Assembly (NCBI RefSeq): GCF_009498275.1
Contig: NZ_CP045643.1
Span: 3,906,001 to 3,970,000, forward strand
Reading direction: 5' to 3'
Source: Streptomyces fagopyri
Lineage (GTDB): Bacteria > Actinomycetota > Actinomycetes > Streptomycetales > Streptomycetaceae
Length of the DNA: 64,000 nucleotides
Both the position numbers and the translations under genes were made by a program. Numbering within the stretch: position 1 is the first letter of the stretch; every line of letters starts with the position of its first letter. The notes beneath the pieces were generated by a model that saw nothing but the letters and a program-made list of their open reading frames with translations, did no database searches and had not been told where the DNA came from. Positions 6,163 through 48,091 of the stretch are shown one piece after another.

Positions 6163-7464
6163 TCACACGGCGTCGGGAACGGGAAGCGGGCGCTTCTCGA
6201 TCGCCGCCGCCATCACGTCGGGAAACAGATCGGGTGTGCAGGCGAACGCCGGTGCGCCCAGCGCCGCGAGTGCCGCCGCGTGCTCACGGTCGTAGGCCGG
6301 CGTCCCCTCGTCGGACAGCGCCAGCAGCGCCACGAACTGCACTCCCGACGCCTTCATCGCCGCCACCCGCTTCAGCATCTCGTCGCGTATGCCCCCTTCG
6401 TAGAGGTCGCTGATGAGCACGACCACGGTGTCGGCGGGCCGGGTGATGCGCGACTGGCAGTACGCGAGCGCCCGGTTGATGTCCGTCCCGCCCCCCAGCT
6501 GGGTGCCGAAGAGGACGTCGACCGGGTCGTCCAGCTGGTCGGTGAGGTCCACGACGGCCGTGTCGAAGACGACGAGCCGGGTGGCGATGGACCGCATCGA
6601 CGCGAGGACGGCCCCGAAGACGGACGCGTGGACGACGGACGCGGCCATCGAGCCCGACTGGTCGACGCACAGGACGACCTCCTTCTTCACGGACTGCGAG
6701 GCGCGTCCGTGACCGATCAGCCGTTCGGGAACGACCGTGCGGTGTTCGGGCAGGTAGTGCTTCAGGTTGGCCGCGATCGTGCGGTTCCAGTCGATGTCGT
6801 GGTGGCGGGGGCGGTTGACGCGGGCGCTGCGGTCGAGGGCGCCGGAGAGCGACGCCCGGGTGCGGGTGGCGAGCCGCTTCTCCAGGTCCTCGACGACCTT
6901 GCGCACGACGGCCCGCGCGGTCTCCTTCGTCGTCTCCGGCATGACCTTGTTGAGGGAGAGGAGGGTGCCCACCAGGTGCACGTCGGCTTCCACCGCCTCC
7001 AGCATCTCCGGCTCCAGGAGCAGGGCGGACAGACCGAGCCGGTCGATCGCGTCCCTCTGCATGATCTGCACGACGGACGACGGGAAGTACGTCCGGATGT
7101 CCCCGAGCCAGCGGGCGACCGACGGTGCGGACGCCCCGAGCCCCGCCGAACGGTCCCGCCCCGGCCGCTCCCCGCTCCCCTTTCCGTACAACGCGGTGAG
7201 CGCGCCGTCCATCGCCGCGTCCTGCCCGGCGAGCGCGTGTCCGGTGCCGTCCGCCTCGTCGCCCCCGAGCACGAGCCGCCAGCGCCGCAGCCGCTCGTCG
7301 GCCGAGGCGTCCGCACGGCGCGCGGAACCGACCGGCGGCACGTCGCCGGTCGGCCGCCCCTCGGCGACCGACCGCGGTGCGCCGACCGACCGCGGTGCGG
7401 CGGCCGGTCGCGGTGCGGCGGTGGCTCGGGGCGCGGCGGTCGGGTCCACTGGTACTGAGGTCAT
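6163..7464 (-). CDS. VWA (CoxE/YehP-like) domain protein of a MoxR-VWA locus
   Basis: 433 aa. Residues 1-60 are Ala/Pro/Arg-rich repeats, residues 60-260 helical. A von Willebrand A domain from about residue 263 has an intact metal-ion site: D268-Q-S270-G-S272, the downstream LGGGTDINRAL, and VLISDLYEGG. The ATG overlaps the stop of the DUF5682 gene (ATGA, 7461-7464), so translation is coupled. In known MoxR systems the VWA partner couples the AAA+ motor to a client protein; the position after MoxR and DUF5682 mirrors Escherichia coli yehL-yehM-yehP. The client is unknown. It is the last gene of the minus-strand operon; 156 bp separate its stop from the next minus-strand start. Confidence 0.88.
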   Translation of the reverse strand: MTSVPVDPTAAPRATAAPRPAAAPRSVGAPRSVAEGRPTGDVPPVGSARRADASADERLRRWRLVLGGDEADGTGHALAGQDAAMDGALTALYGKGSGERPGRDRSAGLGASAPSVARWLGDIRTYFPSSVVQIMQRDAIDRLGLSALLLEPEMLEAVEADVHLVGTLLSLNKVMPETTKETARAVVRKVVEDLEKRLATRTRASLSGALDRSARVNRPRHHDIDWNRTIAANLKHYLPEHRTVVPERLIGHGRASQSVKKEVVLCVDQSGSMAASVVHASVFGAVLASMRSIATRLVVFDTAVVDLTDQLDDPVDVLFGTQLGGGTDINRALAYCQSRITRPADTVVVLISDLYEGGIRDEMLKRVAAMKASGVQFVALLALSDEGTPAYDREHAAALAALGAPAFACTPDLFPDVMAAAIEKRPLPVPDAV

Positions 7465-10112
7465 CGGTCCACCCCCACAAGGTCGTCGGCGTCGACGGTG
7501 TCGTCACCGTCGGCGGATTCTTCGGCGCCGGCGGATCCGTCGGGCTCGGCGGCTGGGCCGATCTCCGGCCCGAGCAGCAGACGCAGTACCGGCAGGACGG
7601 CGTCCGCCCGTGCGGCGTCCGGTTCGGGGGCGAACCCGGGTATGCCGGAGACGGCCGTCGCGACACTCCCCCGCGCCCGCGAGCCGCGTCGGACCAGTTC
7701 CCCCAGCGTTCTGCGCACCCCGGCCTCGTACGCCGAGAACGTGCGCCGCAGCAGCGGGAGCACGTCGGTGAACGCCTCCGCCGGCACCCCCGTCAGCCAC
7801 GCGTCGACCAGTCCGAGCAGCCGCTCGTCGTGCACGAGCAGCATGCCTCCCCCGGAGCCGCCGCCGACGAACCCCTCGATCCACGCGGCCGCGTCACCCG
7901 GCTCCGTGCCCGGCGACAGCACGAGGCCCATGAGCCGGGCGGCCTCCTCCTGTCCCAGCTCTCCGTCGTCCAGCAGCAGTCGCACGGCCCGGCCGCGGAG
8001 GACGCCGGGGACGGTGTCCCGGCCGGTCAGCACACGCAGCACGGAGTGCCAGCGACCGCGCATCCCCGTGCCTCGCCGTCCACCGGCGGACGGCGAGGCC
8101 GTGACCGTCTCCCCCAACGGCCCTGCCCCTCCCGGCAGTCCCGTCTCCCCCGACGGCCCTGCCCCTCTCCGCAGCCCCGTCTCCCCCAGCAGCCCTGTCT
8201 CTCCCAGCAGTCCCACCGCGCCGTGCACCGCGTCCACATGGCGCCGCATCTCCTCGGCGGCCTCGGCGTCGAGGGCCGCGCAGGCAGGCGGGAGACCGAC
8301 GAAGATCCGCTCGGCGAGACCCGCGGCCACCTCGGCGAGAGCGCGGGTGTCCGTGCCGCGGACGTCGCCGTAACGCAACGAGCGGACCAGCGCGGGCAGC
8401 GCCTGGGCGAGGTGGCCGACGTCCGTGTCCAGTGCCGCCCGGTCGGCGAGGACCCGCATCACCACGGGCAGCGCGTCCGTGAGCCGGGCTAGCAGACAGC
8501 GTTCGGCGAGTGCCGTGACCTCGGCCAGGGCGGGTGCGGCGACGGCGTCCGCCTCCGTCCTGGCGGTCGCCGCGGAGAGCACGGTCGTGCCCCACACCCC
8601 GGCCTCGGCGACCCGTACGGACAGCTCCGGTTCCCAGCGCAGCCGCCAGGTCTCCCGGAAGGTGCCGGTGCTGCCGCGGGACGCGACGGGCTCGCCCCAC
8701 CCGATGCCGAGCAGCCGCAGCCGGTGCAGGAGCCGGCTGCGCCCCGCGTCGGTCTCGCCCCGCAGGTCGAGCTCCAACTCCCGCTCCTGCGGCTCCGGTT
8801 TGATCCGCAGCCGCTTCTGGAGCCGGGCGAGGTCGCGCTGGAGCGGCACGGCGGGAGCGGACGGCGGCACCTCGCCCAGCACGTCGCCGACCACGAGCCG
8901 GTCGTGCACGAGCGCCAGCGGCACGTCCGAGCCCTCGCACATCACGGCCCGTACGGCATCGGTGGTCTCGGTCAGCCCGGCCAGCGGGCGGCCCCGTACG
9001 GCGGCGAGCGTGTCCGCCAGCCGGACCGCCTCGATGACGTGCGCGGACGAGACCATGCGGTCCTCGTCGCGCAGCAGCCGGGCCACCTTCGTCATCCACC
9101 GCTCGACCGGACGGTCGGGGGCGTCGAAGAGATGCCCGTACCAGCCCGGCGAGTCGATGCCCGCGCCGTACCCGCCGGCCCGGGACAGCCTGCGGTGCGT
9201 CCACGGCACCCACGTCATGTCGGTCCTGACCCTGGGCAGTCCCTTGAGCAGCGCCCGGTCGGCGGCGACCGTGGTCCTGCGGCGCAGCGCGGGCACGTGC
9301 CAGGCCCCGCACACCACGGCCACGTCGTCCCCGAACTCCCGTCGTGCCGCGCGCACCTGGAGCCGCATGTACGCCTCCCGCTCCGGATCCCGGGCGTGTC
9401 CGCCGCCCCCGTACGCCCCCCGCAGTACTCCCATCGCCTCCTCCAGCGCGGCGAACGGCGCGAACGGATCGGTGCGGGTCCCGCTCCGGTGCTCGACCGC
9501 GTCCTCCCACCAGCGCTCGGGATCGTCGTGACCGGCCGTCCGCGCGAGCACGGCGAGCGGATCGATCCGCACGGCGTCGTCGGTGAGTTCGGCCGGTACC
9601 GCGGGTTCGGCTGGTACGGCGGGTGACCGGGCCGGTTCCTCCTTCTCCCGGGCCAGGGTGTGCGTCGCCGGCAGGTCGATGAAGCGGGCCGGGACCCCAC
9701 GGTCCAGCGCCCACCGGATCGCCACCCACTCCGGGGAGAACTCGGCCAGCGGCCAGAAGGCGGAGCGGCCCGGCTCGTCCACCACATGGGCCAGGAGCGC
9801 GACCGGAGGACGCATGTCCGGATCGGCGGCGAGCGGAATGAGCGTGTCGGCCTCCGGGGGCCCCTCGATCAGGACGGTCCGTGGTGCCGCGGCGTCCAGC
9901 GCGGCCCGTACCGCACGGGCCGAGCCGGGTCCGTGGTGCCGGACCCCGAGCAGCAACGGCCCGCCCGCCCGCGCCGCCGGCACCCGTTCCGCCCCCGACC
10001 CCGCCCCGACCGCGCTCCGCGTCCCCTCCCGTTCGCGGGGTTCCGCCCTCTCCGCCCCTCCTGCCGCGCCGAGGCCGCGTTCCTCCCCCGTCCCCTCCCC
10101 CGGTCCGGTCAC
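7461..10112 (-). CDS. DUF5682 family protein (YehM-like) of a MoxR-VWA locus
   Basis: 883 aa from a GTG at 10112 that overlaps the MoxR stop (GTGA, 10109-10112). The N-terminal about 300 residues hold LLLGVRHHGPGSARAVRAAL, VLIEGPPEADTLIPLAADP and VVCGAWHVPAL. This His/Glu-containing pattern is typical of DUF5682 and faintly recalls the TraB/ChaN-type fold. The rest is long and helix-rich, with a Gly/Leu repeat linker (LLGETGLLGETGLRRGAGPS, encoded around 8100-8210) and a C-terminal domain with repeated helices. No enzymatic activity is established for the family. Its place between MoxR and VWA, with 4-bp overlaps at both ends, argues for equimolar production in one complex. Confidence 0.85.
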   Translation of the reverse strand: MTGPGEGTGEERGLGAAGGAERAEPREREGTRSAVGAGSGAERVPAARAGGPLLLGVRHHGPGSARAVRAALDAAAPRTVLIEGPPEADTLIPLAADPDMRPPVALLAHVVDEPGRSAFWPLAEFSPEWVAIRWALDRGVPARFIDLPATHTLAREKEEPARSPAVPAEPAVPAELTDDAVRIDPLAVLARTAGHDDPERWWEDAVEHRSGTRTDPFAPFAALEEAMGVLRGAYGGGGHARDPEREAYMRLQVRAARREFGDDVAVVCGAWHVPALRRRTTVAADRALLKGLPRVRTDMTWVPWTHRRLSRAGGYGAGIDSPGWYGHLFDAPDRPVERWMTKVARLLRDEDRMVSSAHVIEAVRLADTLAAVRGRPLAGLTETTDAVRAVMCEGSDVPLALVHDRLVVGDVLGEVPPSAPAVPLQRDLARLQKRLRIKPEPQERELELDLRGETDAGRSRLLHRLRLLGIGWGEPVASRGSTGTFRETWRLRWEPELSVRVAEAGVWGTTVLSAATARTEADAVAAPALAEVTALAERCLLARLTDALPVVMRVLADRAALDTDVGHLAQALPALVRSLRYGDVRGTDTRALAEVAAGLAERIFVGLPPACAALDAEAAEEMRRHVDAVHGAVGLLGETGLLGETGLRRGAGPSGETGLPGGAGPLGETVTASPSAGGRRGTGMRGRWHSVLRVLTGRDTVPGVLRGRAVRLLLDDGELGQEEAARLMGLVLSPGTEPGDAAAWIEGFVGGGSGGGMLLVHDERLLGLVDAWLTGVPAEAFTDVLPLLRRTFSAYEAGVRRTLGELVRRGSRARGSVATAVSGIPGFAPEPDAARADAVLPVLRLLLGPEIGPAAEPDGSAGAEESADGDDTVDADDLVGVDR

Positions 10113-11302
10113 GCGCCCGCCTCCCGGCAGGCCCGGTAGAAGTCCTTCCAGCCCTCGCGCTCGCGGACGACCGCCTCCAGGTACTCCTGCCAGACGACCC
10201 GGTCGGCCGCCTGATCGCGCACGACGGCGCCGAGGACGCCCGCCGCCACGTCCGAGGCGCGCAGGACGCCGTCGCCGAAGTGGGCGGCCAGTGCCAGCCC
10301 GCCGGTGACGACGGAGATCGCCTCGGCGGTGGACAGCGTGCCGCTGGGCGACTTGAGCTTCGTACGCCCGTCCGCCGTCACGCCGTCGCGCAGCTCACGG
10401 AAGACGGTGACGACACGGCGGATCTCGTCGACGCCGTCCGGGACGGACGGGAGGTCGAGGGAGCGGCCGATCTGGTCGACGCGGCGCGCGACGATGTCCA
10501 CCTCCGCCTCGGCGCTCTCCGGCAGCGGCAGCACCACCGTGTTGAAGCGCCGGCGCAGGGCGCTGGACAGCTCGTTCACCCCGCGGTCGCGGTCGTTGGC
10601 CGTGGCGATCAGGTTGAACCCGCGGACGGCCTGCGTCTCCTGGCCCAGCTCCGGTATGGGCAGGGTCTTCTCCGACAGGATCGTGATCAGCGTGTCCTGT
10701 ACGTCCGCCGGGACACGGGTCAGCTCCTCGACGCGGACCGTCATGCCCTCGGCCATGGCGCGCATGACCGGGCTCGGCACGAGCGCCTCCCGGCTCGGGC
10801 CGTGGGCGAGCAGCTGTGCGTAGTTCCACCCGTACCGGATCGCCTCCTCCGGTGTGCCGGCGGTGCCCTGCACCAGCAGGGTCGAGTCGCCGCTGACCGC
10901 CGCGGCCAGGTGTTCGGACACCCAGGTCTTCGCGGTGCCGGGCACGCCGAGGAGCAGCAGGGCGCGGTCGGTGGCGAGGGTGGTGACCGCGACCTCGACG
11001 ATGCGGCGCGGGCCCACGTACTTCGGTGTGATCTCCGTGCCGTCCGGCAGGGTGCCGCCCAGCAGATAGGTCGCCACGGCCCACGGCGACAGCCGCCAGC
11101 GGGCCGGGCGGGGCCGGTCGTCCTGCGCGGCCAGCGCGGCGAGTTCGGCGGCGAAGGCGTGCTCGGCGTGCTGTCGCAGCACCTCGTCCGCGTGACCGTC
11201 CGCGCTCACCGCGCTCGCGCCGGCGCCCGGGGCCGCTCCCCGGGCCTGTCCCGCGGGCGTGTCGACGGACGTCGGTTCCACGGACTCGATGGACACGGTC
11301 AT
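10109..11302 (-). CDS. MoxR-family AAA+ ATPase (YehL-like)
   Basis: 397 aa from the ATG at 11302, preceded by GGAGGGGGG; an in-frame start at 11386 would cross the divergent promoter and is rejected. Residues 119-126 are the Walker A motif GVPGTAKT. RVEELTRVPADVQDTLITIL covers the Walker B region in its MoxR form, and GFNLIATANDRDRGVNELSS is the sensor 1/arginine-finger region. The first about 60 residues are an Ala/Gly-rich extension. MoxR ATPases act as chaperone-like motors with VWA partners, and the third gene of this operon encodes one. It is the first gene of a translationally coupled three-gene operon. Upstream, TTGTCAGTG on the minus strand lies in a DNA-damage-promoter-like arrangement with a one-base mismatch in the -10. 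Confidence 0.93.
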   Translation of the reverse strand: MTVSIESVEPTSVDTPAGQARGAAPGAGASAVSADGHADEVLRQHAEHAFAAELAALAAQDDRPRPARWRLSPWAVATYLLGGTLPDGTEITPKYVGPRRIVEVAVTTLATDRALLLLGVPGTAKTWVSEHLAAAVSGDSTLLVQGTAGTPEEAIRYGWNYAQLLAHGPSREALVPSPVMRAMAEGMTVRVEELTRVPADVQDTLITILSEKTLPIPELGQETQAVRGFNLIATANDRDRGVNELSSALRRRFNTVVLPLPESAEAEVDIVARRVDQIGRSLDLPSVPDGVDEIRRVVTVFRELRDGVTADGRTKLKSPSGTLSTAEAISVVTGGLALAAHFGDGVLRASDVAAGVLGAVVRDQAADRVVWQEYLEAVVREREGWKDFYRACREAGA

Positions 11303-11346
11303 GGCGCGTGTCCCCCCTCCAGCTCGGCCGGTTCGGATCTGGTTCC

Positions 11347-11369
11347 ACCGTGCACCACACCACTGACAA
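11347..11369 (-). promoter_or_regulatory. Near-consensus DNA-damage (PafBC-type) promoter for the MoxR operon
   Basis: On the minus strand TTGTCAGTG (11369-11361) is followed by 8 nt and CACGGT (11352-11347). The published mycobacterial RecA-independent damage promoter is TTGTCRGTG-N8-TANNNT; here the first -10 base is C in place of T. The start codon is at 11302 with its own Shine-Dalgarno, leaving a leader of about 38 nt. Confidence 0.55.
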
Positions 11370-11419
11370 TCGGCTCTGACCTGCACAAACGCGTTCGCGG
11401 AGGTCGATTGTCAGTGGTG
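11358..11419. repeat. 15-bp perfect inverted pair in the MoxR/SWIM divergent promoter
   Basis: Left arm CACCACTGACAATCG (11358-11372) and right arm CGATTGTCAGTGGTG (11405-11419) are exact reverse complements separated by 32 bp. Each arm presents TTGTCAGTG pointing toward one of the two divergent genes, so the repeat is probably two copies of one promoter or activator element and not a hairpin. Confidence 0.9.
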
Positions 11420-11430
11420 GGATCTACCTT
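11408..11430 (+). promoter_or_regulatory. DNA-damage (PafBC-type) promoter for the SWIM gene
   Basis: TTGTCAGTG (11408-11416), 8 nt, then TACCTT (11425-11430): an exact match to TTGTCRGTG-N8-TANNNT, the RecA-independent DNA-damage promoter known from mycobacteria and assigned to PafBC. The ATG at 11438 lies 7 nt after the -10, so the transcript should be leaderless, consistent with the absence of a Shine-Dalgarno sequence. Confidence 0.78.
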
Positions 11431-11437
11431 CGATGAC

Positions 11438-12793
11438 ATGACTCAGCAGGGGGTGCGCTGGACGGCGGACCAGGTGCTGGCACTGGCGCCTGACACGGCG
11501 TCACGCAGAGCGGGCAGCGAGCTCGGCACCGCCGGACCGTGGTCGGAGACAGGCAGTTCTGACGAGGGGACGCTATGGGGACTGTGCAGAGGAAGCGGCA
11601 GCACGCCTTATCAGACGGTCATAGACATCGCGGACTCCACCGGGCCCGCGTACACGTGCAGTTGTCCGAGCCGGAAGTTCCCGTGCAAGCACACGCTGGG
11701 ACTGCTGCTGCTCTGGGCGGGCGAGGACGGTGTGGTGCCGCGGGGGCCCGTGCCGGACTGGGCGGAGCGATGGACGGAGGGGAGAAGGGAGCGAGCGGCG
11801 GCGAGTCCGACGACGGGCGGGGCATCTGGGACGGCGTCACCGGCTGACCCGGAGGCGGCCCGGCGCAGGGCGGAGCGCCGGGCCGCTCGGATCACCGCGG
11901 GGGCCGGGGAGTTGGAGCGGCGGCTGGCCGACCTGTTGCGGGGCGGCCTCGCGACGGCCGAGCAGGCGGGGTACGGGATGTGGGAGGAGACGGCGGCCCG
12001 CATGGTCGACGCGCAGGCGCCCGGACTGGCGGCGCGGGTGCGGGAGTTGGGGGCGATCCCCGCCTCCGGTGCGGGCTGGCCCGTGCGGCTGCTGGAGGAG
12101 TGCGCGATGCTCCATCTCCTCGACCGGGGCTGGCTGCGCCGGGAGGCGCTGCCGGACGGGCTGGCCGCGACGGTCCGCTCCCGGGTCGGCCTGTCCGGCT
12201 CCGCAGCCGGCCCGCCGCTGCGGGACCGCTGGCTGGTCCTCGCCCAGTACGACACGGCGGACAGCCGGCTCATCACCCGCAGGATCTGGTTGTACGGCGC
12301 GGAGTCCGGCCGCACGGTCCAGGTCCTCTCCTACGGAGCGGCCGGCCGCGCGCCGGAGCAGGCCCTGCCGGTCGGCCTGGCCTTCGAGGCGGAGGTGACC
12401 GCGTACCCGGGCTCGGGCCGGCTGCGGGTGGCCCTGGGCGAGCGGTTCACCCTCCCGGCCCCCACGCGCAGCCGGCCGCCGGGAGTGGGCACATCCCGCG
12501 CGGCGGCCCGTTACGGCGAGGCGCTGCGCGACGACCCCTGGCTCGACTCCTGCCCGGTCACGCTGGACCGGGTCATACCCACCCCCGACGGGGACTCCTG
12601 GCAACTCGCCGACGAGGAGGGGGATTTCGCGCTCCCACTCGCGCCCTCGGCGCTCTCCGGCCCCGGGCTGTGGCGGCTGGCCGCCCTCTCCGGCGGCGCC
12701 CCCGTCACGGTCTTCGGCGAGTGCGGTCACCGTGGCTTCGTTCCGCTGACGGCCTGGCCGGCGGAGGCGGGCGAGGCGGTACGGCTGTGCTGA
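11438..12793 (+). CDS. SWIM zinc-finger protein (YehQ-like) of a MoxR-VWA locus
   Basis: 451 aa. The start at 11438 is chosen because it sits 7 nt after a TANNNT -10 (leaderless) and the preceding ATG at 11433 runs straight into a stop. The SWIM motif is clear: C74-S-C76, six residues, C83-K-H85 (CSCPSRKFPCKH). Upstream is the usual small beta domain (LWGLCRGSGSTPYQTVIDIA); downstream is a proline/alanine linker and about 300 residues without a recognised fold. SWIM domains bind zinc and act in DNA or protein binding; the eukaryotic SWIM protein of the Shu complex works in recombination. Transcribed away from the MoxR operon from a shared 135-bp region. Confidence 0.88.
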   Translation: MTQQGVRWTADQVLALAPDTASRRAGSELGTAGPWSETGSSDEGTLWGLCRGSGSTPYQTVIDIADSTGPAYTCSCPSRKFPCKHTLGLLLLWAGEDGVVPRGPVPDWAERWTEGRRERAAASPTTGGASGTASPADPEAARRRAERRAARITAGAGELERRLADLLRGGLATAEQAGYGMWEETAARMVDAQAPGLAARVRELGAIPASGAGWPVRLLEECAMLHLLDRGWLRREALPDGLAATVRSRVGLSGSAAGPPLRDRWLVLAQYDTADSRLITRRIWLYGAESGRTVQVLSYGAAGRAPEQALPVGLAFEAEVTAYPGSGRLRVALGERFTLPAPTRSRPPGVGTSRAAARYGEALRDDPWLDSCPVTLDRVIPTPDGDSWQLADEEGDFALPLAPSALSGPGLWRLAALSGGAPVTVFGECGHRGFVPLTAWPAEAGEAVRLC

Positions 12794-12881
12794 CCCGCGG
12801 CGTCCCGTCCACCGGCGGCTTCCCGCCCCCGTTCCCCGCCCGTTTCCCCTGCCCGTGTGCCTCCGTACGGAAAGGACGTTC

Positions 12882-14528
12882 ATGAACGCGACCCCGGCTT
12901 CGGCGGGCGTGCCCGTCGAGAGTTCCTGGGAGGAGCTCGTCACCGTGGCGCTGCTCGGGACCGAGCGGCGTACGCCGCCCGTGTGGGCGGCCGGGCGTGA
13001 GGTGCCGGTGGCCGTCCTGGACGCGGCCGCCGTGGCGACCCTGCGGCGGCGGGCCGGGATGCGGCCGGGCCGGGCGGCCGTCCGGCCCGAGCCCGCGGCG
13101 CCGGACCCGCGACGCCCTCTGCCACCCGCCGCCGCCCGGCGGCTGGCGGTGCTGCTGGCCGACCGGCCCGGCGCCGGAGGCGGCCGCCGTGGCACGGCCC
13201 CCGACCTCATGGAACTGCTGCCCCAGTGGCTCGCGCTGGCCGACGCGCAGGGTTTCGCGGCTCCGCCGGAAACACTGCCCGCGCTCCTCGACGCCGCCCG
13301 GGGCCGCACGGATCTGCGGCCCGCCGCGCTGGCCTTCGCCGGACCGCGCGCCCTGTGGCTGGCCCGGCTGAACCCGGACTGGCGGTTCGCGCTGCGTTCC
13401 ATGCCGGGCGGCGGCGCCGCGCTGCCCGGCCCCGACGAGCCCGAGCGCACCCAACGGCTCTGGCAGGAGGGCCTGTTCGCCGAGCGGGTCGCACTGCTCA
13501 CGGCGCTGCGGGCCCGGCGTCCGGCGACCGCGCGCGAACTGCTCGCCACCACCTGGGGGACGGAGCGGGCCGAGGACCGCCTGATGTTCCTCGACTCGCT
13601 GCGGTCAGGACTGGAGCCGGCCGACGAGCCGTTCCTGGAGCGGGCGCTCACCGACCGGAGCCGCAATGTGCGGGCCACGGCGGCGGAGCTGCTGTCCGCG
13701 CTGCCCGGTTCGGCGCTCGCCGCCCGGATGGCGGCGCGGGCCGGTTCGTGCGTGGCCGTCGACCGCACCCAGGGGGCGCCCTCGATCGTCGTCGAGGCGC
13801 CGCACGAGTGCGACGCGAGCATGGAGCGGGACGGTGTGGTACCGAAAGCTCCGGCGGGACGAGGGGAACGGTCGTGGTGGCTGGGCCAGTTGGTCGAAGC
13901 AGCGCCGCTCGGGGCATGGCCGCGGCGGCTGGGGGGACGCACACCGGTGGAGATCGTCGCGCTTCCCGTGACGGACGACTGGCGGAACGAACTGCACGCC
14001 GCGTGGTGCCGGGCGGCGGTACGGCAGCGGGACCCGGGCTGGTCCAGAGCGCTCCTCGGCGCACCCTCCGCCGCGGAGGCCGGCGGGCCGGGGGCGGTGT
14101 CGCCGGCGGAGCGTTCGAAGCTGCTCGCCACGCTGGGTCCGGCCGAACGGGCCGAGTGGGTGGCGGGGTTCATCGCCACCCACGGCCTGTCCGAGGCGTT
14201 TCAGCTGCTGGGGGTCTGCGCGGTGCCGTGGGCGGAGCCCCTGGGGCGTGCGGTGGTCGACGCGCTCGACATCGCGCGCGACGCGGGGAGTTATCCATGG
14301 AGTTTCAGTGGGGTGATGGGGCTGGCGGAGCGGTGTCTGGATCCGCTGGAGGCGGGGCGGCTCGACGCGCTCACGGCGATTCCCGACGAGACGGAGAACG
14401 CGGCGCCGGGGGCCGGCGGCTACTGGTCGGAGGCCTTCCAGCGTCTCGTCACCACCTTGCGGCTGCGCGCGGAGATGACCGCGGAGCTGGCGGTGCCGGA
14501 ACCCGAGCGGAGTCCGGCGATGCCCTGA
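12882..14528 (+). CDS. DUF5691 family protein, helical-repeat component of the MoxR/SWIM locus
   Basis: 548 aa from the ATG at 12882, with AAAGGA 6-7 nt upstream; it lies 88 bp after the SWIM stop on the same strand. The N-terminus carries WEELVTVALLGTERRTPPVW, typical of the family. The middle is a helical HEAT-like stretch (ERALTDRSRNVRATAAELLS). Later are FSGVMGLAERCLDPLEAGRL and a C-terminal helix. DUF5691 genes recur beside SWIM genes in MoxR/VWA loci; the biochemical role is unknown. A scaffold that holds substrate for the MoxR-VWA machine is a guess from the repeat character alone. Confidence 0.82.
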   Translation: MNATPASAGVPVESSWEELVTVALLGTERRTPPVWAAGREVPVAVLDAAAVATLRRRAGMRPGRAAVRPEPAAPDPRRPLPPAAARRLAVLLADRPGAGGGRRGTAPDLMELLPQWLALADAQGFAAPPETLPALLDAARGRTDLRPAALAFAGPRALWLARLNPDWRFALRSMPGGGAALPGPDEPERTQRLWQEGLFAERVALLTALRARRPATARELLATTWGTERAEDRLMFLDSLRSGLEPADEPFLERALTDRSRNVRATAAELLSALPGSALAARMAARAGSCVAVDRTQGAPSIVVEAPHECDASMERDGVVPKAPAGRGERSWWLGQLVEAAPLGAWPRRLGGRTPVEIVALPVTDDWRNELHAAWCRAAVRQRDPGWSRALLGAPSAAEAGGPGAVSPAERSKLLATLGPAERAEWVAGFIATHGLSEAFQLLGVCAVPWAEPLGRAVVDALDIARDAGSYPWSFSGVMGLAERCLDPLEAGRLDALTAIPDETENAAPGAGGYWSEAFQRLVTTLRLRAEMTAELAVPEPERSPAMP

Positions 14529-18553: not shown

Positions 18554-21157
18554 CTAGAGCTTCTCCACCGGCGCGTACCGCAGCAGCAGCCGCTTCGGCT
18601 TGGGCTCGCCGAAGTCGACCGTGGCCTCCGCGTTCGCCCCCGTGCCCTTCACCCCGACCACCGTGCCGAGCCCGAACTGGTCGTGGGTGACCCGGTCGCC
18701 CACCGCCAGCGAGACGACCGGCTTCTCGGAGGCCCCGCGGCGCGTCGCGAAGCCGGAGGCACCGGACGCCGCGGACCGTGAGCGCGAGGACGACAGCGAG
18801 GCCGCCACACCCGAGACGGGCCCCGAGGACACCGGGGCCATGGCGCCCGTGCGCTTCCACTCCAGATGCGTGTCCGGGATCTCCTCCAGGAAGCGGGAGG
18901 GCGGGTTGTACGAGGGCTGGCCCCACGCGCTGCGCATGGACGAGCGGGTGAGGTAGAGGCGCTCACGCGCGCGCGTGATGCCGACGTACGCGAGACGCCG
19001 CTCCTCCTCCAGCTCCTTGACCTGCCCCAGCGCGCGCATGTGCGGGAAGACGCCGTCCTCCATGCCGGTGAGGAACACGACCGGGAACTCCAGGCCCTTG
19101 GCGGTGTGCAGGGTCATCAGGGTGATGACGCCGTTGCCGTCGTCCTCGTCGGGGATCTGGTCGGAGTCGGCGACGAGCGCGACCCGCTCCAGGAACCCGG
19201 AGAGCCCGCCGGCCACCGCGACCCCCTCAGCGGCATCGGTCGTCCCAGCGGCATCGGTCGCCCCAGCGGCACCGGTCGCCCCTGCGGCATCGGTCGCCCC
19301 TGCGGCATCGCCGGCCGCCCCGGTCCCGTCCTCGCCCCCGCCGGACTCCTGCTCGAACTCAAGCGCCACGGCCGCGAGTTCCTGGAGGTTCTCGATCCGG
19401 GTCTCGTCCTGTGGGTCCGTCGAGGCCTGCAGCTCGGCGAGATAGCCGGTGCGTTCGAGGACCGCCTCCAGGACCGTCGCCGGGCCCGCGCCGGACTCGA
19501 CGATCGTACGGAGGTCCTCCATGAGCGCGTTGAACCGCTTCACGGCGTTCGTCGACCGCGCCGCCATGCCGTACGCCTCGTCGACGCGGCGCAGCGCCTG
19601 CGGGAAGCTGATCCGCTCCCGCTGCGAGAGGGCGTCGATCATCGCCTCGGCGCGGTCACCGATCCCGCGCTTGGGGACGTTCAGGATCCGGCGCAGCGGG
19701 ACGGAGTCCTCGGGGTTGGACAGGACGCGCAGGTAGGCCAGGACGTCCCGGACCTCCTTGCGCTCGTAGAAGCGGACACCGCCGACGACCTTGTAGGGCA
19801 GGCCGACGCGGATGAAGATCTCCTCGAACACACGGGACTGGGCGTTCGTCCGGTAGAAGACCGCGACATCGCCCGCCTTCGCGTCGCCCGCGTCGGTGAG
19901 ACGGTCTATCTCGTCGGCGACGAACTGTGCCTCGTCGTGCTCGGTGTCGGCGACATAGCCCGTGATGTTCGACCCGGCGCCCGCGTTGGTCCACAGGTTC
20001 TTGGGGCGGCGCGACTCGTTGCGCTCGATGACCGCGTTCGCCGCGGTGAGGATCGTCTGGGTGGAGCGGTAGTTCTGCTCCAGCAGGATGGTCGTCGCGT
20101 CCGGGTAGTCCTCCTCGAACTGGAGGATGTTGCGGATGGTCGCGCCGCGGAAGGCGTAGATCGACTGGTCGGCGTCACCCACGACGCACAGCTCGGCGGG
20201 CCCGAGGTCGCCCTCGGCCGGCGGCAGGCCCTCGGGGCGGTCGCCGCTCGCCGGTCCCACGAGCTCCCTGACCAGGGCGTACTGCGCGTGGTTCGTGTCC
20301 TGGTACTCGTCGACCAGGACGTGGCGGAAGCGGCGGCGGTAGTGCTCGGCGACGTCCGGGAAGGCGCGCAGCAGGTTGACCGTCGTCATGATCAGGTCGT
20401 CGAAGTCGAGCGCGTTGGCCTCGCGCAGCCGCGACTGGTACATCGCGTAGGCCTGCGCGAGGGTCTTCTCGAAACCGTCCGCCGCCTGGCCGGCGAAGTC
20501 CTCCTCGTCGATCAGCTCGTTCTTCAGGTTGGAGATCTTCGCGCTGAACGACTTCGGCGGAAAGCGCTTCGGGTCGAGGTCCAGGTCCCGGCAGACCAGG
20601 GCCATCAGGCGCTTGCTGTCGGCGGCGTCGTAGATCGAGAAGGAGGACGTGAAGCCGAGCCTCTTCGACTCGCGGCGCAGGATGCGTACGCACGCGCTGT
20701 GGAAGGTCATCACCCACATCGCGTGGGCGCGCGGGCCGACGAGCTGCTCGACGCGCTCCTTCATCTCGCCCGCGGCCTTGTTCGTGAAGGTGATCGCGAG
20801 GATCTGGCCGGGGTGGACATGGCGCTCGCCCAGCAGGTGCGCGATCCGGTGCGTGAGCACCCGGGTCTTGCCGGAGCCGGCGCCGGCCACGATGAGCAGC
20901 GGGGAGCCGGAGTGCACCACGGCCGCGCGCTGGTTCTCGTTGAGCCCGTCCAGCAGGGCCGCCGGGTCCACGGCGGGCCGGTGGGCGCCGTCGCGGTAGT
21001 ACGCGTCGCGGTCCGGGGGCACGTCGAAGCGGCCGCCGAACAGGTCGTCCGGAAGCGGCTCCGCCACCTCGTCCTCGGGCGGCGGCGGAGGCTCTTCCTC
21101 ATGGGCCCCGGAAGGCTTGAGGTCCGCCAGGAAGCTGTCATCAAAGAGGCTGCTCAT
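18554..21157 (-). CDS. pcrA: ATP-dependent DNA helicase PcrA/UvrD, superfamily 1A
   Basis: 867 aa, slightly long for the family. A 3'-5' helicase for repair and for resolving replication-transcription conflicts. Seen motifs: Walker A in LLIVAGAGSGKTRVLTHRIA, LVDEYQDTN (motif II), GDADQSIYAFRGA (III), LLEQNYRST (IV), ITLMTLHTAKGLEFPVVFL (V) and YVGITRARERL (VI). An Ala/Thr/Gly repeat insert (DAAGATDAAGATGAAG) interrupts the region before motif V and accounts for the extra length. The C-terminus has the Tudor-like module VTHDQFGLGTVVGVKG. The ATG at 21157 lies 9 nt after a TAGACT -10 box, so the mRNA is nearly leaderless; the promoter matches the DNA-damage consensus. Confidence 0.97.
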   Translation of the reverse strand: MSSLFDDSFLADLKPSGAHEEEPPPPPEDEVAEPLPDDLFGGRFDVPPDRDAYYRDGAHRPAVDPAALLDGLNENQRAAVVHSGSPLLIVAGAGSGKTRVLTHRIAHLLGERHVHPGQILAITFTNKAAGEMKERVEQLVGPRAHAMWVMTFHSACVRILRRESKRLGFTSSFSIYDAADSKRLMALVCRDLDLDPKRFPPKSFSAKISNLKNELIDEEDFAGQAADGFEKTLAQAYAMYQSRLREANALDFDDLIMTTVNLLRAFPDVAEHYRRRFRHVLVDEYQDTNHAQYALVRELVGPASGDRPEGLPPAEGDLGPAELCVVGDADQSIYAFRGATIRNILQFEEDYPDATTILLEQNYRSTQTILTAANAVIERNESRRPKNLWTNAGAGSNITGYVADTEHDEAQFVADEIDRLTDAGDAKAGDVAVFYRTNAQSRVFEEIFIRVGLPYKVVGGVRFYERKEVRDVLAYLRVLSNPEDSVPLRRILNVPKRGIGDRAEAMIDALSQRERISFPQALRRVDEAYGMAARSTNAVKRFNALMEDLRTIVESGAGPATVLEAVLERTGYLAELQASTDPQDETRIENLQELAAVALEFEQESGGGEDGTGAAGDAAGATDAAGATGAAGATDAAGTTDAAEGVAVAGGLSGFLERVALVADSDQIPDEDDGNGVITLMTLHTAKGLEFPVVFLTGMEDGVFPHMRALGQVKELEEERRLAYVGITRARERLYLTRSSMRSAWGQPSYNPPSRFLEEIPDTHLEWKRTGAMAPVSSGPVSGVAASLSSSRSRSAASGASGFATRRGASEKPVVSLAVGDRVTHDQFGLGTVVGVKGTGANAEATVDFGEPKPKRLLLRYAPVEKL
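19219..19320. repeat. 15-bp imperfect tandem repeats inside pcrA
   Basis: About six units of the type CGGCATCGGTCGCCC (plus-strand reading) encode the (T/A)DAAGA-type linker of the helicase. They look like an expandable low-complexity linker. Confidence 0.7.
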
Positions 21158-21166
21158 CGCTCTCCG

Positions 21167-21189
21167 AGTCTAGGCGGCCCCACTGACAA
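21167..21189 (-). promoter_or_regulatory. DNA-damage (PafBC-type) promoter of pcrA
   Basis: On the minus strand TTGTCAGTG (21189-21181), 8 nt, TAGACT (21172-21167): an exact match to TTGTCRGTG-N8-TANNNT. The pcrA ATG is 9 nt past the -10. Helicases of this family are known members of the mycobacterial RecA-independent damage regulon, which supports the call. Confidence 0.8.
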
Positions 21190-46093: not shown

Positions 46094-48091
46094 ATGGCCA
46101 CGCCCACCGTTTCGGTGATCATTGCGGCATACAACGCGATGCCCTACGTGACGCGCACCATTTCCTCGGTCGCCGAGCAGACCATCGGCACGGAACGGCT
46201 GGAGGTCATCGTCGTCGACGACGGTTCGACCGACGGCACCGCGGCCGAACTCGACCGCCTGACGGACGTGCACCCCGGCCTGCTGCGCGTCGTCCGCCAG
46301 GAGAACTCCGGCGGCCCCGCGGCACCCCGAAACGCCGGACTCGACCTCGCCCGCGGCGAGTTCGTCTTCTTCCTGGACGCCGACGACCGCCTGGGACCCG
46401 AGGCCCTGGAACGGATGGTCGCCATGGCCGAGGAGAACGGCACCGATGTCGTCCTCGGCAAGATGGTCGGCGGCGGCGGACGCGAGGCACCCACGTCGAT
46501 GTTCCGGCGCAACGAACCGAAGACCGACGTGTTCACCTCCCGCGTCTACTGGACCCTCAGCCCGATGAAGCTGTTCCGCCGCGACCTGCTGGAACGGCAC
46601 GGACTGCGCTTCCCCACCGACCTGCCCACCGGCGAGGACCAGCCGTTCGTGGCCTCCGCCTACCTGCACGCGTCGGGGATCTCCGTGGTCGCCGACTACG
46701 ACTGCGTCCACTGGGTCCTGCGCGACGACGGCACCAACATCACGGCGACCACCTCGGGTTCCGAGCCCCGCCTGCGCTACCTCGCCCGCATGGTCGACCT
46801 CATCACCGACAACGTTCCGCCCGGCCCCGGCCGCGACCGCCTGGCGCACCGGCACCTCACGGTCGAGGTGCGGTCGCTCGTCCACAGCCACCTCGCACTG
46901 GAGACCCGCGAGCGGCAGCGCGAGACCCTGGCCCGTCTCACCCGCGTCATCACCCCGCTGCTCCACGACGGCCTGCGCGGGGAACTCTCCGCGATGGCGT
47001 GGCTGCGCCTTCACCTCGTACGTCACGACATGCCCGGGGAACTCCTCGAACTCGACCGTTTCGAGGACGAGTCGAAGGAGTCGGGCGTGGCCACCCCGCT
47101 GGTCGTCGACAGGGGCCGCGCCTACGCGCGCTACCCCTTCTTCCGGGACCCGGCGCGCGCCGTCCCCGACGACTGCTACGACGTCACCGGCCAGGTCGGC
47201 ACCCGCCACCACGTCTCCCGCGCCGAACTGCGCGGCACCGTACTGCGCCTGGCCGGCTACGCGTACCTGCACCGTGTGGCGACGCAGGACGTCACCACCG
47301 AACTGGTGCTGCGCGAACGGGAGAGCGGGACCGAGCACCGCCTCCCGGTGACGCACACCGCCACCCCGGGGCTCGGCGCGTACGAGGACGAGGGCCGGTA
47401 CACGTACGACACGGCGGGGTTCGAGGCCCGCGTCGACATCGAGACCGCCGCGGGCGCGGCACCGCTCGACGACGGACTGTGGGACATCTCCCTGGCGGTC
47501 GGGGCCCAGGGCCTCTCGCGTGAGGTACGGATCGGCGGCAAGCGGGGCGAGGACGTGTCCGGCGTGGCCGACACCCGGGTCGTGGACACCCCGCGCGACG
47601 TCCGCGCCGTCACTCTCTACACCACCAAGCCGCACGGCAACTTCACGCTGGACCTGGGCGAGAGGAAGCACCGGGTACTGTCGCACCTGAAGCTCGCCCC
47701 GGCCCGCTGGAACGCCAGTACCCCCACCGAGCTGCTGGTCTCCGGCCGGTGGACGCTGGGCGCCTACCCGGACGGCCCGCTGGAACTGGTGCTCAGCGGC
47801 GACGGCGGTGCGACGGCCGTCTTCCCCGCCACCCGCACCCCGCACGGCGACACCTTCACCGCCCGGGTGCCGGCCGCCGACCTGCCGGCCGGAGTCTGGA
47901 GCGGCGAACTGCGGCTCTCCGGCTGGTCCGTGACCCTTCCGCCGCTCCCGGAGAACCTGACCGCGGCCAAGTGGCGCCGCCGGGGCACGCCCTGGTACGC
48001 CAAGCCGCTGTCCGGCGGGTCCGAGCGGTTCGCCCTGCGGGTGGGGAAGACCGGCCTCGTCAAGACGGTCGCGGGCCGCGTCAGGCCGTGA
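46094..48091 (+). CDS. Family 2 glycosyltransferase with long C-terminal extension
   Basis: 665 aa from the ATG at 46094, with GGAGAG about 7 nt upstream. Residues 1-230 are a GT2 GT-A domain: VSVIIAAYNAMPYVTRTISS, VVDDGSTDGT, GPAAPRNAGLDLARGEFVFF, the metal-binding LDADDRL, and a GEDQPF catalytic-region motif. Residues about 230-330 are helical. Residues about 345-665 are beta-rich repeats of the kind found C-terminal to teichoic-acid-type transferases (for example DVTTELVLRERESGTEHRLP). Probably builds a wall or surface polymer on the cytoplasmic face. It converges on the kinase cluster, which would fit wall-related control, but that link is inference. Confidence 0.88.
   Translation: MATPTVSVIIAAYNAMPYVTRTISSVAEQTIGTERLEVIVVDDGSTDGTAAELDRLTDVHPGLLRVVRQENSGGPAAPRNAGLDLARGEFVFFLDADDRLGPEALERMVAMAEENGTDVVLGKMVGGGGREAPTSMFRRNEPKTDVFTSRVYWTLSPMKLFRRDLLERHGLRFPTDLPTGEDQPFVASAYLHASGISVVADYDCVHWVLRDDGTNITATTSGSEPRLRYLARMVDLITDNVPPGPGRDRLAHRHLTVEVRSLVHSHLALETRERQRETLARLTRVITPLLHDGLRGELSAMAWLRLHLVRHDMPGELLELDRFEDESKESGVATPLVVDRGRAYARYPFFRDPARAVPDDCYDVTGQVGTRHHVSRAELRGTVLRLAGYAYLHRVATQDVTTELVLRERESGTEHRLPVTHTATPGLGAYEDEGRYTYDTAGFEARVDIETAAGAAPLDDGLWDISLAVGAQGLSREVRIGGKRGEDVSGVADTRVVDTPRDVRAVTLYTTKPHGNFTLDLGERKHRVLSHLKLAPARWNASTPTELLVSGRWTLGAYPDGPLELVLSGDGGATAVFPATRTPHGDTFTARVPAADLPAGVWSGELRLSGWSVTLPPLPENLTAAKWRRRGTPWYAKPLSGGSERFALRVGKTGLVKTVAGRVRP

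Follow-up and report, generated by a model that had tools for sequence, protein, structure and literature searches.

A predicted DNA-damage-induced MoxR–VWA and SWIM gene cluster in Streptomyces fagopyri, a candidate counterpart of ddrTUVWX in Deinococcus

The window analyzed here, a 64,000-nucleotide stretch (3.906–3.970 Mb) of the 8.88-Mb single-contig genome of Streptomyces fagopyri, contains a cluster of five genes encoding a MoxR-type AAA+ ATPase, a DUF5682 protein, a VWA protein of the CoxE family, a SWIM zinc-finger protein and a DUF5691 protein. Coordinates are window positions, and published work is cited by PMC number from excerpts of the papers. Control of the cluster by DNA damage is well supported, by the conservation of its promoter motifs and by the published induction of the ddrTUVWX genes of Deinococcus. 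A first-pass annotation of the sequence had proposed such control, without mention of ddrTUVWX, and on this point it finds strong support. We hold it somewhat more probable than its opposite that the cluster is the Streptomyces form of the ddrTUVWX damage-response set and acts as a damage-induced AAA+ remodeller of complexes between single-stranded DNA (ssDNA) and protein. In the cell it is likely to help in dealing with DNA damage.

The five genes, their 4-bp couplings and their divergent layout, all read from the sequence at first pass, were confirmed by Pfam and by a check of the overlaps (Table 1). Overlaps at ATGA and GTGA couple the three minus-strand genes for MoxR, DUF5682 and VWA_CoxE, the VWA start overlapping the DUF5682 stop at ATGA; the SWIM and DUF5691 genes diverge from this arm. 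The start codons of MoxR and SWIM were refined to 11302 and to the ATG at 11438. Each arm is preceded by a motif identical in sequence and spacing to that of the PafBC (RecA-NDp) regulon of mycobacteria and Streptomyces, except for a variant −10 on the MoxR side. The exact damage promoter claimed for the SWIM side holds, as does the claim that the MoxR side has the same TTGTCAGTG with one mismatch in the −10: its hexamer CACGGT differs from TANNNT at one position and from TACCTT at three. A scan of the window allowing up to three mismatches gave four matches, against 0.18 expected. Because the SWIM ATG lies only 7 nt past the −10, its transcript is probably leaderless, like those of recA, uvrB and dnaX in the same genome.

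Table 1. Genes and predicted promoter elements of the five-gene cluster (window positions).
Feature	Position	Strand	Details
VWA_CoxE protein	6163..7464	−	433 aa; Pfam 7.3e-61
DUF5682 protein	7461..10112	−	883 aa; Pfam 1.9e-298
MoxR-type AAA+ ATPase	10109..11302	−	397 aa; Pfam AAA_5/MoxR 3.8e-37
Predicted MoxR-side PafBC-type promoter	11347..11369	−	TTGTCAGTG-N8-CACGGT, variant −10
GCAGGTCAG box	11376..11384	−	6 bp before the MoxR-side motif; also seen in relatives
Predicted SWIM-side PafBC/RecA-NDp promoter	11408..11430	+	TTGTCAGTG-N8-TACCTT, exact
SWIM protein	11438..12793	+	451 aa; Pfam 1.1e-4, 22 bits against a cut-off of 19.6, scored on the longer open frame 9881–12793
DUF5691 protein	12855..14528	+	up to 557 aa; Pfam 5.9e-175; alternative ATG start at 12882

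The same motif recurs at repair genes throughout the genome. The strict pattern TTGTCRGTG-N8-TANNNT has 23 sites, and the reversed pattern none. Ten sites lie upstream of recognizable repair, replication or helicase genes: those for RecA, UvrB, O6-methylguanine methyltransferase, DnaX, RuvC, MgsA/RarA, UvrD/PcrA, a RecD2-HHH protein and two DEAD helicases. Two further sites precede the SWIM gene of the cluster and a SWIM-like gene, itself lacking a Pfam match, in a paralogous set that we call system B; six precede genes for ribosomal protein S6, DUF4253, DUF2797, SUKH-4, an MFS protein and a sigma factor. These assignments come from a Pfam scan of 19 of the 23 downstream genes (all except L001, L006, L007 and L044), which returned no match for L003. 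Eight genes, SWIM included, start 7 nt past the −10, as leaderless mRNAs would. Two adjacent WYL genes near 7.346–7.348 Mb, about 3.5 kb before a motif-bearing helicase gene (L048), are candidates for PafB and PafC, named by position and domain rather than by an equivalog model. A chance origin of the motif was considered and rejected, as the reversed control is absent from this genome and from 246 Streptomyces genomes. From the motif at repair genes and the WYL pair we conclude that, as far as sequence can tell, it marks a real damage regulon in S. fagopyri.

The RecA-NDp promoter was described earlier in Streptomyces (PMC5087735), and PafBC is activated by ssDNA (PMC11804915). In a 2022 study of S. 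venezuelae, the M. smegmatis PafBC motif did not emerge as conserved from an initial search, according to the excerpt (PMC9380542). The motif stands plainly at repair genes in the present Streptomyces genome, which bears on that remark. In the excerpts of the PafBC literature, the cluster is not seen among the regulon members; PMC5656591 mentions MoxR1, MoxR2 and a VWA protein by name.

Some sites of this kind lie outside the main subject. Four uncharacterized genes follow exact damage-type promoters: L003, without a Pfam match, and L039, L041 and L043 (DUF4253, DUF2797 and SUKH-4). Elsewhere in the window, the UvrD/PcrA helicase gene (18554–21157, minus strand) has a candidate PafBC-type promoter at 21167–21189 (minus), with its start codon 9 nt past the −10, and a weaker match with three mismatches lies at 46790–46812 (minus).

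Within Streptomyces the divergent pair of sites is widely conserved. Both sites were present in 9 of 9 Streptomyces genomes having the locus in a phylum-wide draw, and the pair was found in 153 of 246 Streptomyces genomes. MoxR and SWIM flanked it at all the pair loci inspected (39 rows from 36 distinct genomes, G023, G182 and G107 each appearing twice). We also sampled 40 of the 93 pair-negative genomes, taken in list order after setting aside two of low completeness (G296 and G344). SWIM was found in 35 of these 40 (E 1e-30), and the 30 loci returned all had a divergent MoxR gene. Of their SWIM-side motifs, 26 were exact and 4 had a single mismatch; of their MoxR-side sites, with T or C allowed at the first −10 base, 25 were exact and 5 had a single mismatch. 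By this measure all 30 keep both sites within one mismatch. Decay was rejected as an explanation of the MoxR-side mismatch: the −10 reads CANNNT in all 66 distinct Streptomyces genomes examined (30 plus 36). It is a conserved variant.

The MoxR-side motif has an additional upstream element. The composite of GCAGGTCAG six bases upstream of TTGTCAGTG has one other exact copy in the genome (L143:2318, G000:C1:6723317), which precedes a HEPN_SAV_6107 gene and again has a CA-type −10, CACGAT. In relatives, inspected by eye, GCAGGTCAG lies about six bases upstream of one site; one group has it oriented towards MoxR, another towards SWIM. The composite possibly reflects a second regulator or a special class of PafBC promoter.

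Outside Streptomyces the promoter evidence is uneven. DUF5682 was detected (E ≤1e-40) in 98 of 394 class members. In one family (f84) the five genes form a single operon in the order SWIM-DUF5691-MoxR-DUF5682-VWA. Of the 20 loci whose SWIM start could be scored, 17 have the motif, with up to two mismatches, 21 or 22 nt ahead of the projected first codon of SWIM; six more of the 26 lacked such a start (L155, L171, L178, L184, L185 and L187). Two loci of this family (L157 and L162) have a called SWIM start 7 nt past the −10, as in Streptomyces. The motif search upstream of actinobacterial orthologues suggested at first pass thus succeeds in Streptomyces and f84 but fails in other families: 4 of 16 such loci reach two mismatches, at no constant place. 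For this reason the link to the PafBC motif, judged from these sequences, is not general across actinobacteria.

System B (L071, G000:C1:2089–2097 kb) comprises genes for a SWIM-like protein, a 472-aa protein, VWA, MoxR and a DUF5682-like protein, with a strict motif at its head. The strict motif is present in four of five system B loci, its own and three of four orthologous ones. The SWIM-like and 472-aa genes are one open frame in L079, and the SWIM C-terminus matches the 472-aa protein weakly (p 0.004, probability 8).

The closest published counterpart is ddrTUVWX. In D. deserti a radiation-response motif precedes Deide_18730, which opens a set of five genes, a MoxR-like and a VWA gene among them (PMC2669436); ddrTUVWX corresponds to Deide_18730–18690, with the MoxR-like gene third and a VWA CoxE-like gene last. 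The excerpts of PMC5552922 report that the SWIM zinc-finger gene Deide_18730 is induced more than 10-fold by radiation in an IrrE-dependent manner, that Deide_18690 (VWA CoxE-like) and two others are induced more than 5-fold, and that a motif of the radiation/desiccation response motif (RDRM) type precedes every homologue of Deide_18730 in the Deinococcus species analyzed. For direct comparison we used a plasmid copy in D. taeanensis, annotated SWIM-DUF5691-AAA-DUF5682-VWA plus one small extra gene. Identity to the window proteins is 73% for MoxR, 54% for VWA, 44% for DUF5682 and 36% for SWIM; DUF5691 gave no tblastn match to this copy. The SWIM gene of this copy is preceded, at a distance of 19 bp, by a palindrome resembling the RDRM, with one mismatch to TTATG-N7-CATAA (0.155 expected in 17.4 kb). 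Against the published RDRM consensus it is not significant alone: there are 3 matches with up to three mismatches, two of them this site on either strand, where 2.75 are expected. Thus the window shares SWIM, DUF5691, MoxR, DUF5682 and VWA_CoxE with ddrTUVWX, as compared in D. taeanensis and, for D. deserti, by the published annotation. It differs in being split into two divergent halves rather than forming one operon, and in carrying PafBC-type motifs where ddrTUVWX is under DdrO/IrrE control via the RDRM.

A second counterpart is the yeh locus of E. coli K-12, whose genes, stated at first pass to have no assigned function, are indeed annotated as uncharacterized or putative. It encodes a MoxR-type AAA_5 protein, DUF5682 (2.4e-98), VWA_CoxE and SWIM, as the window does. 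Unlike the window, yehLMPQ lacks DUF5691, has SWIM last and is linked to the WGR gene yehF, which we take to be molR_1, and the DUF4132 gene yehI. CTGGATAAAATTACAG lies 10 bp before yehF; eight such one-mismatch sites occur in 26 kb against 7.9 expected, so that the site proves nothing alone. E. coli molR is listed as LexA-regulated (PMC11039860, PMC4576408, PMC3978071), and DdrO targets in D. radiodurans include DUF4132 and WGR proteins that mitomycin C induces (PMC8533742).

Both arrangements are widespread. The window-type order occurs in loci of Bacteroidota, Pseudomonadota, Chloroflexota and Planctomycetota, with DUF5691 detected in part of them; the yeh-type order (WGR/DUF4132, MoxR, DUF5682, VWA, SWIM) occurs in Pseudomonadota, Myxococcota and others; and the single-operon form of f84 is found in other phyla as well. 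From a named collection we kept 80 loci of 579 relatives among the matches listed, 36 actinobacterial and 44 non-actinobacterial. Thirty-five of the actinobacterial loci are of the yeh type or fragments, and one is of the window type. They hold 12 relaxed PafBC-type sites (9 strict), all on the operon strand, against none for the reversed pattern. These sites precede frames of 1091–1241 aa at the WGR/DUF4132 position in ten loci; in L211 the gene that follows is MoxR, and in L221 it is a frame of 126 aa. The 44 non-actinobacterial loci have no such site (reversed, two). Three LexA-type patterns were searched in the 80 loci. Scattered GTTC/GAAC-type matches occur in seven (L197, L205, L217, L230, L250, L267 and L272), including a GAAC-N4-GTTC site 263–269 bp before MoxR in L230 and L272; CTGT-N8-ACAG was not found near mapped genes in any of the 80. 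One-mismatch CTGT-N8-ACAG sites in 24 proteobacterial loci have, by eye, no consistent place before the operon. Taken together, the PafBC-type motifs and the cases of DdrO/IrrE and LexA (the latter through the molR neighbour) indicate that unrelated damage regulators act on one gene family in distant lineages.

Two records from this survey should be treated with care. A plasmid of Hymenobacter radiodurans (L275) carries a window-type cluster in which DUF5682 is annotated in three pieces and VWA is unannotated; a broken frame or a sequencing error may be the cause. An unverified phage contig from human faeces (L282, MT835988) encodes a MoxR 55% identical to that of the window and may be bacterial contamination; SWIM had no match in phage records.

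The protein sequences are consistent with a remodelling machine. In MoxR the catalytic motifs are intact (Walker A GVPGTAKT, Walker B VRVEEL, sensor 1 IATAN and the arginine finger), and VWA has a MIDAS motif, DQSGS from residue 268, with T and D downstream. These motifs and knowledge of the family suggest that the pair would act in AAA+ remodelling. In SWIM, the zinc finger CxCx6CxH occupies residues 74–85; the structural model adds a helical middle and an OB-like C-terminus (about residues 253–442) resembling RPA/SSB. The earlier proposal that SWIM is the DNA-facing part draws support from this predicted fold. DUF5691, also proposed as an adaptor, gains a partnership with SWIM from two natural SWIM-DUF5691 fusions (L250:4100–6922 and L068:3276–6137, 940 and 953 aa). 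DUF5682 has an N-terminal alpha/beta domain, in which a His, a Glu, an Asp and an Arg are invariant across 34 of 34 sequences, followed by a C-terminal HEAT-like helical repeat. The invariant residues look more like those of an enzyme, making its proposed role as a mere adaptor doubtful. Searches for relatives were largely negative. An NCBIfam scan gave nothing above cut-off, searching PDB sequences with profiles of DUF5682 and SWIM gave chance-level matches only, and Foldseek with the whole models of both returned none at E 0.001 or better, the DUF5682 search being filled by the helical C-terminus. Against Tiki/TraB/EreA-like hydrolases, DUF5682 scored 0.056 with ChaN and 0.14 with TraB, for one member each of the 34 and amid chance-level families; hhalign comparison with one TraB and five EreA-like sequences was negative.

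We propose the following mechanism. On damage, ssDNA-activated PafBC would direct RNA polymerase to the two divergent promoters, one serving the SWIM-DUF5691 arm and the other the MoxR-DUF5682-VWA arm, the latter probably weaker and more tightly controlled through its variant −10. MoxR hexamers and their VWA partner would form an ATP-driven remodeller. SWIM, with its zinc finger and OB-like folds, would together with DUF5691 recognize damaged or single-stranded DNA and hand over the stuck protein, and DUF5682 would be a scaffold, or an enzymatic subunit, between both arms. PafBC dependence in S. fagopyri, complex formation, the client and the chemistry are what we infer. A bolder version, which we regard as a long shot, is that one ancient machine was recruited independently by PafBC, DdrO and LexA (the molR neighbour) to free DNA from stuck proteins: the SWIM OB folds would find ssDNA, MoxR–VWA would pull, and DUF5682 would be a new metallo-hydrolase (Tiki/TraB-like GxRH...E...GxxH) cutting the protein, in a bacterial AAA+-assisted repair of DNA–protein crosslinks.

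Other AAA+ plus VWA couples are RavA-ViaA, NorQ-NorD and CoxD-CoxE, and by sequence the cluster would work like such MoxR–VWA remodellers while belonging, by gene content, with ddrTUVWX and yehLMPQ. It is unlike RavA-ViaA in that the ViaA equivalog score is 25.1 against a cut-off of 500. We know of no SWIM, DUF5682 or DUF5691 partner in any of the three. The likeness raises the alternative of a damage-induced maturation chaperone, in which MoxR–VWA would equip one enzyme needed under genotoxic stress with a metal or cofactor, in the manner of CoxD/CoxE or NorQ/NorD, and SWIM would be a protein–protein module rather than a DNA binder. Midasin and NorQ are the solved proteins nearest to MoxR by sequence, the VWA is of the CoxE family, and molR has a historical link to molybdate (PMC8533742). 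However, the cluster has no candidate cofactor enzyme, the partner SWIM is predicted to have OB-like folds resembling ssDNA binders, and the excerpt of the same paper reports that D. radiodurans moeA and moeB are not differentially expressed on DdrO depletion. We consider this alternative unlikely.

Rather doubtful is an anti-phage conflict system of the MoxR-vWA ternary kind, for which DNA damage would be the signal of infection. Predicted conflict systems are built around MoxR-vWA couples (PMC7159879), and the window MoxR has a bpMoxR match of 25.8 bits. This is below the cut-off of 27 and sets the cluster apart from the MoxR-vWA-beta-propeller ternary system. PADLOC found no system, with four proteins unmatched and MoxR at just 0.0088, and no hypervariable effector came to notice, although no search was aimed at one. 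Furthermore, most Streptomyces tested have the cluster, counting both the motif pair and SWIM in the pair-negative sample, and the same neighbour gene is present at 13 of 13 loci, unlike a shuffled defence island; with the lack of a PADLOC system, this favours a core function over membership of a defence island. A general accessory of stress or DNA metabolism, with the promoters read, modest induction from the PafBC sites and no direct role at damaged DNA, would fit the motif before the DUF4253, SUKH-4, MFS and sigma-factor genes, but such incidental regulation is hard to sustain, and we think it very unlikely, because both halves, system B, the yeh-type operons and the Deinococcus counterpart are all under damage-type control.

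In our literature search no study among the titles listed was on DUF5682 or DUF5691, and none joined SWIM zinc finger, MoxR and AAA; two papers (PMC4858521 and PMC10910872) contain three of the names MoxR, SWIM, VWA, DUF5682 and DUF5691. Within that literature, the link of the Streptomyces cluster, PafBC and ddrTUVWX appears to be new. The link brings ddrTUVWX of Deinococcus and yehLMPQ/molR of E. coli, separate loci so far, together with the Streptomyces cluster in one family, for which Streptomyces is a tractable host. Its damage-type control through unrelated regulators in distant lineages points to a conserved, undescribed step of the DNA-damage response.

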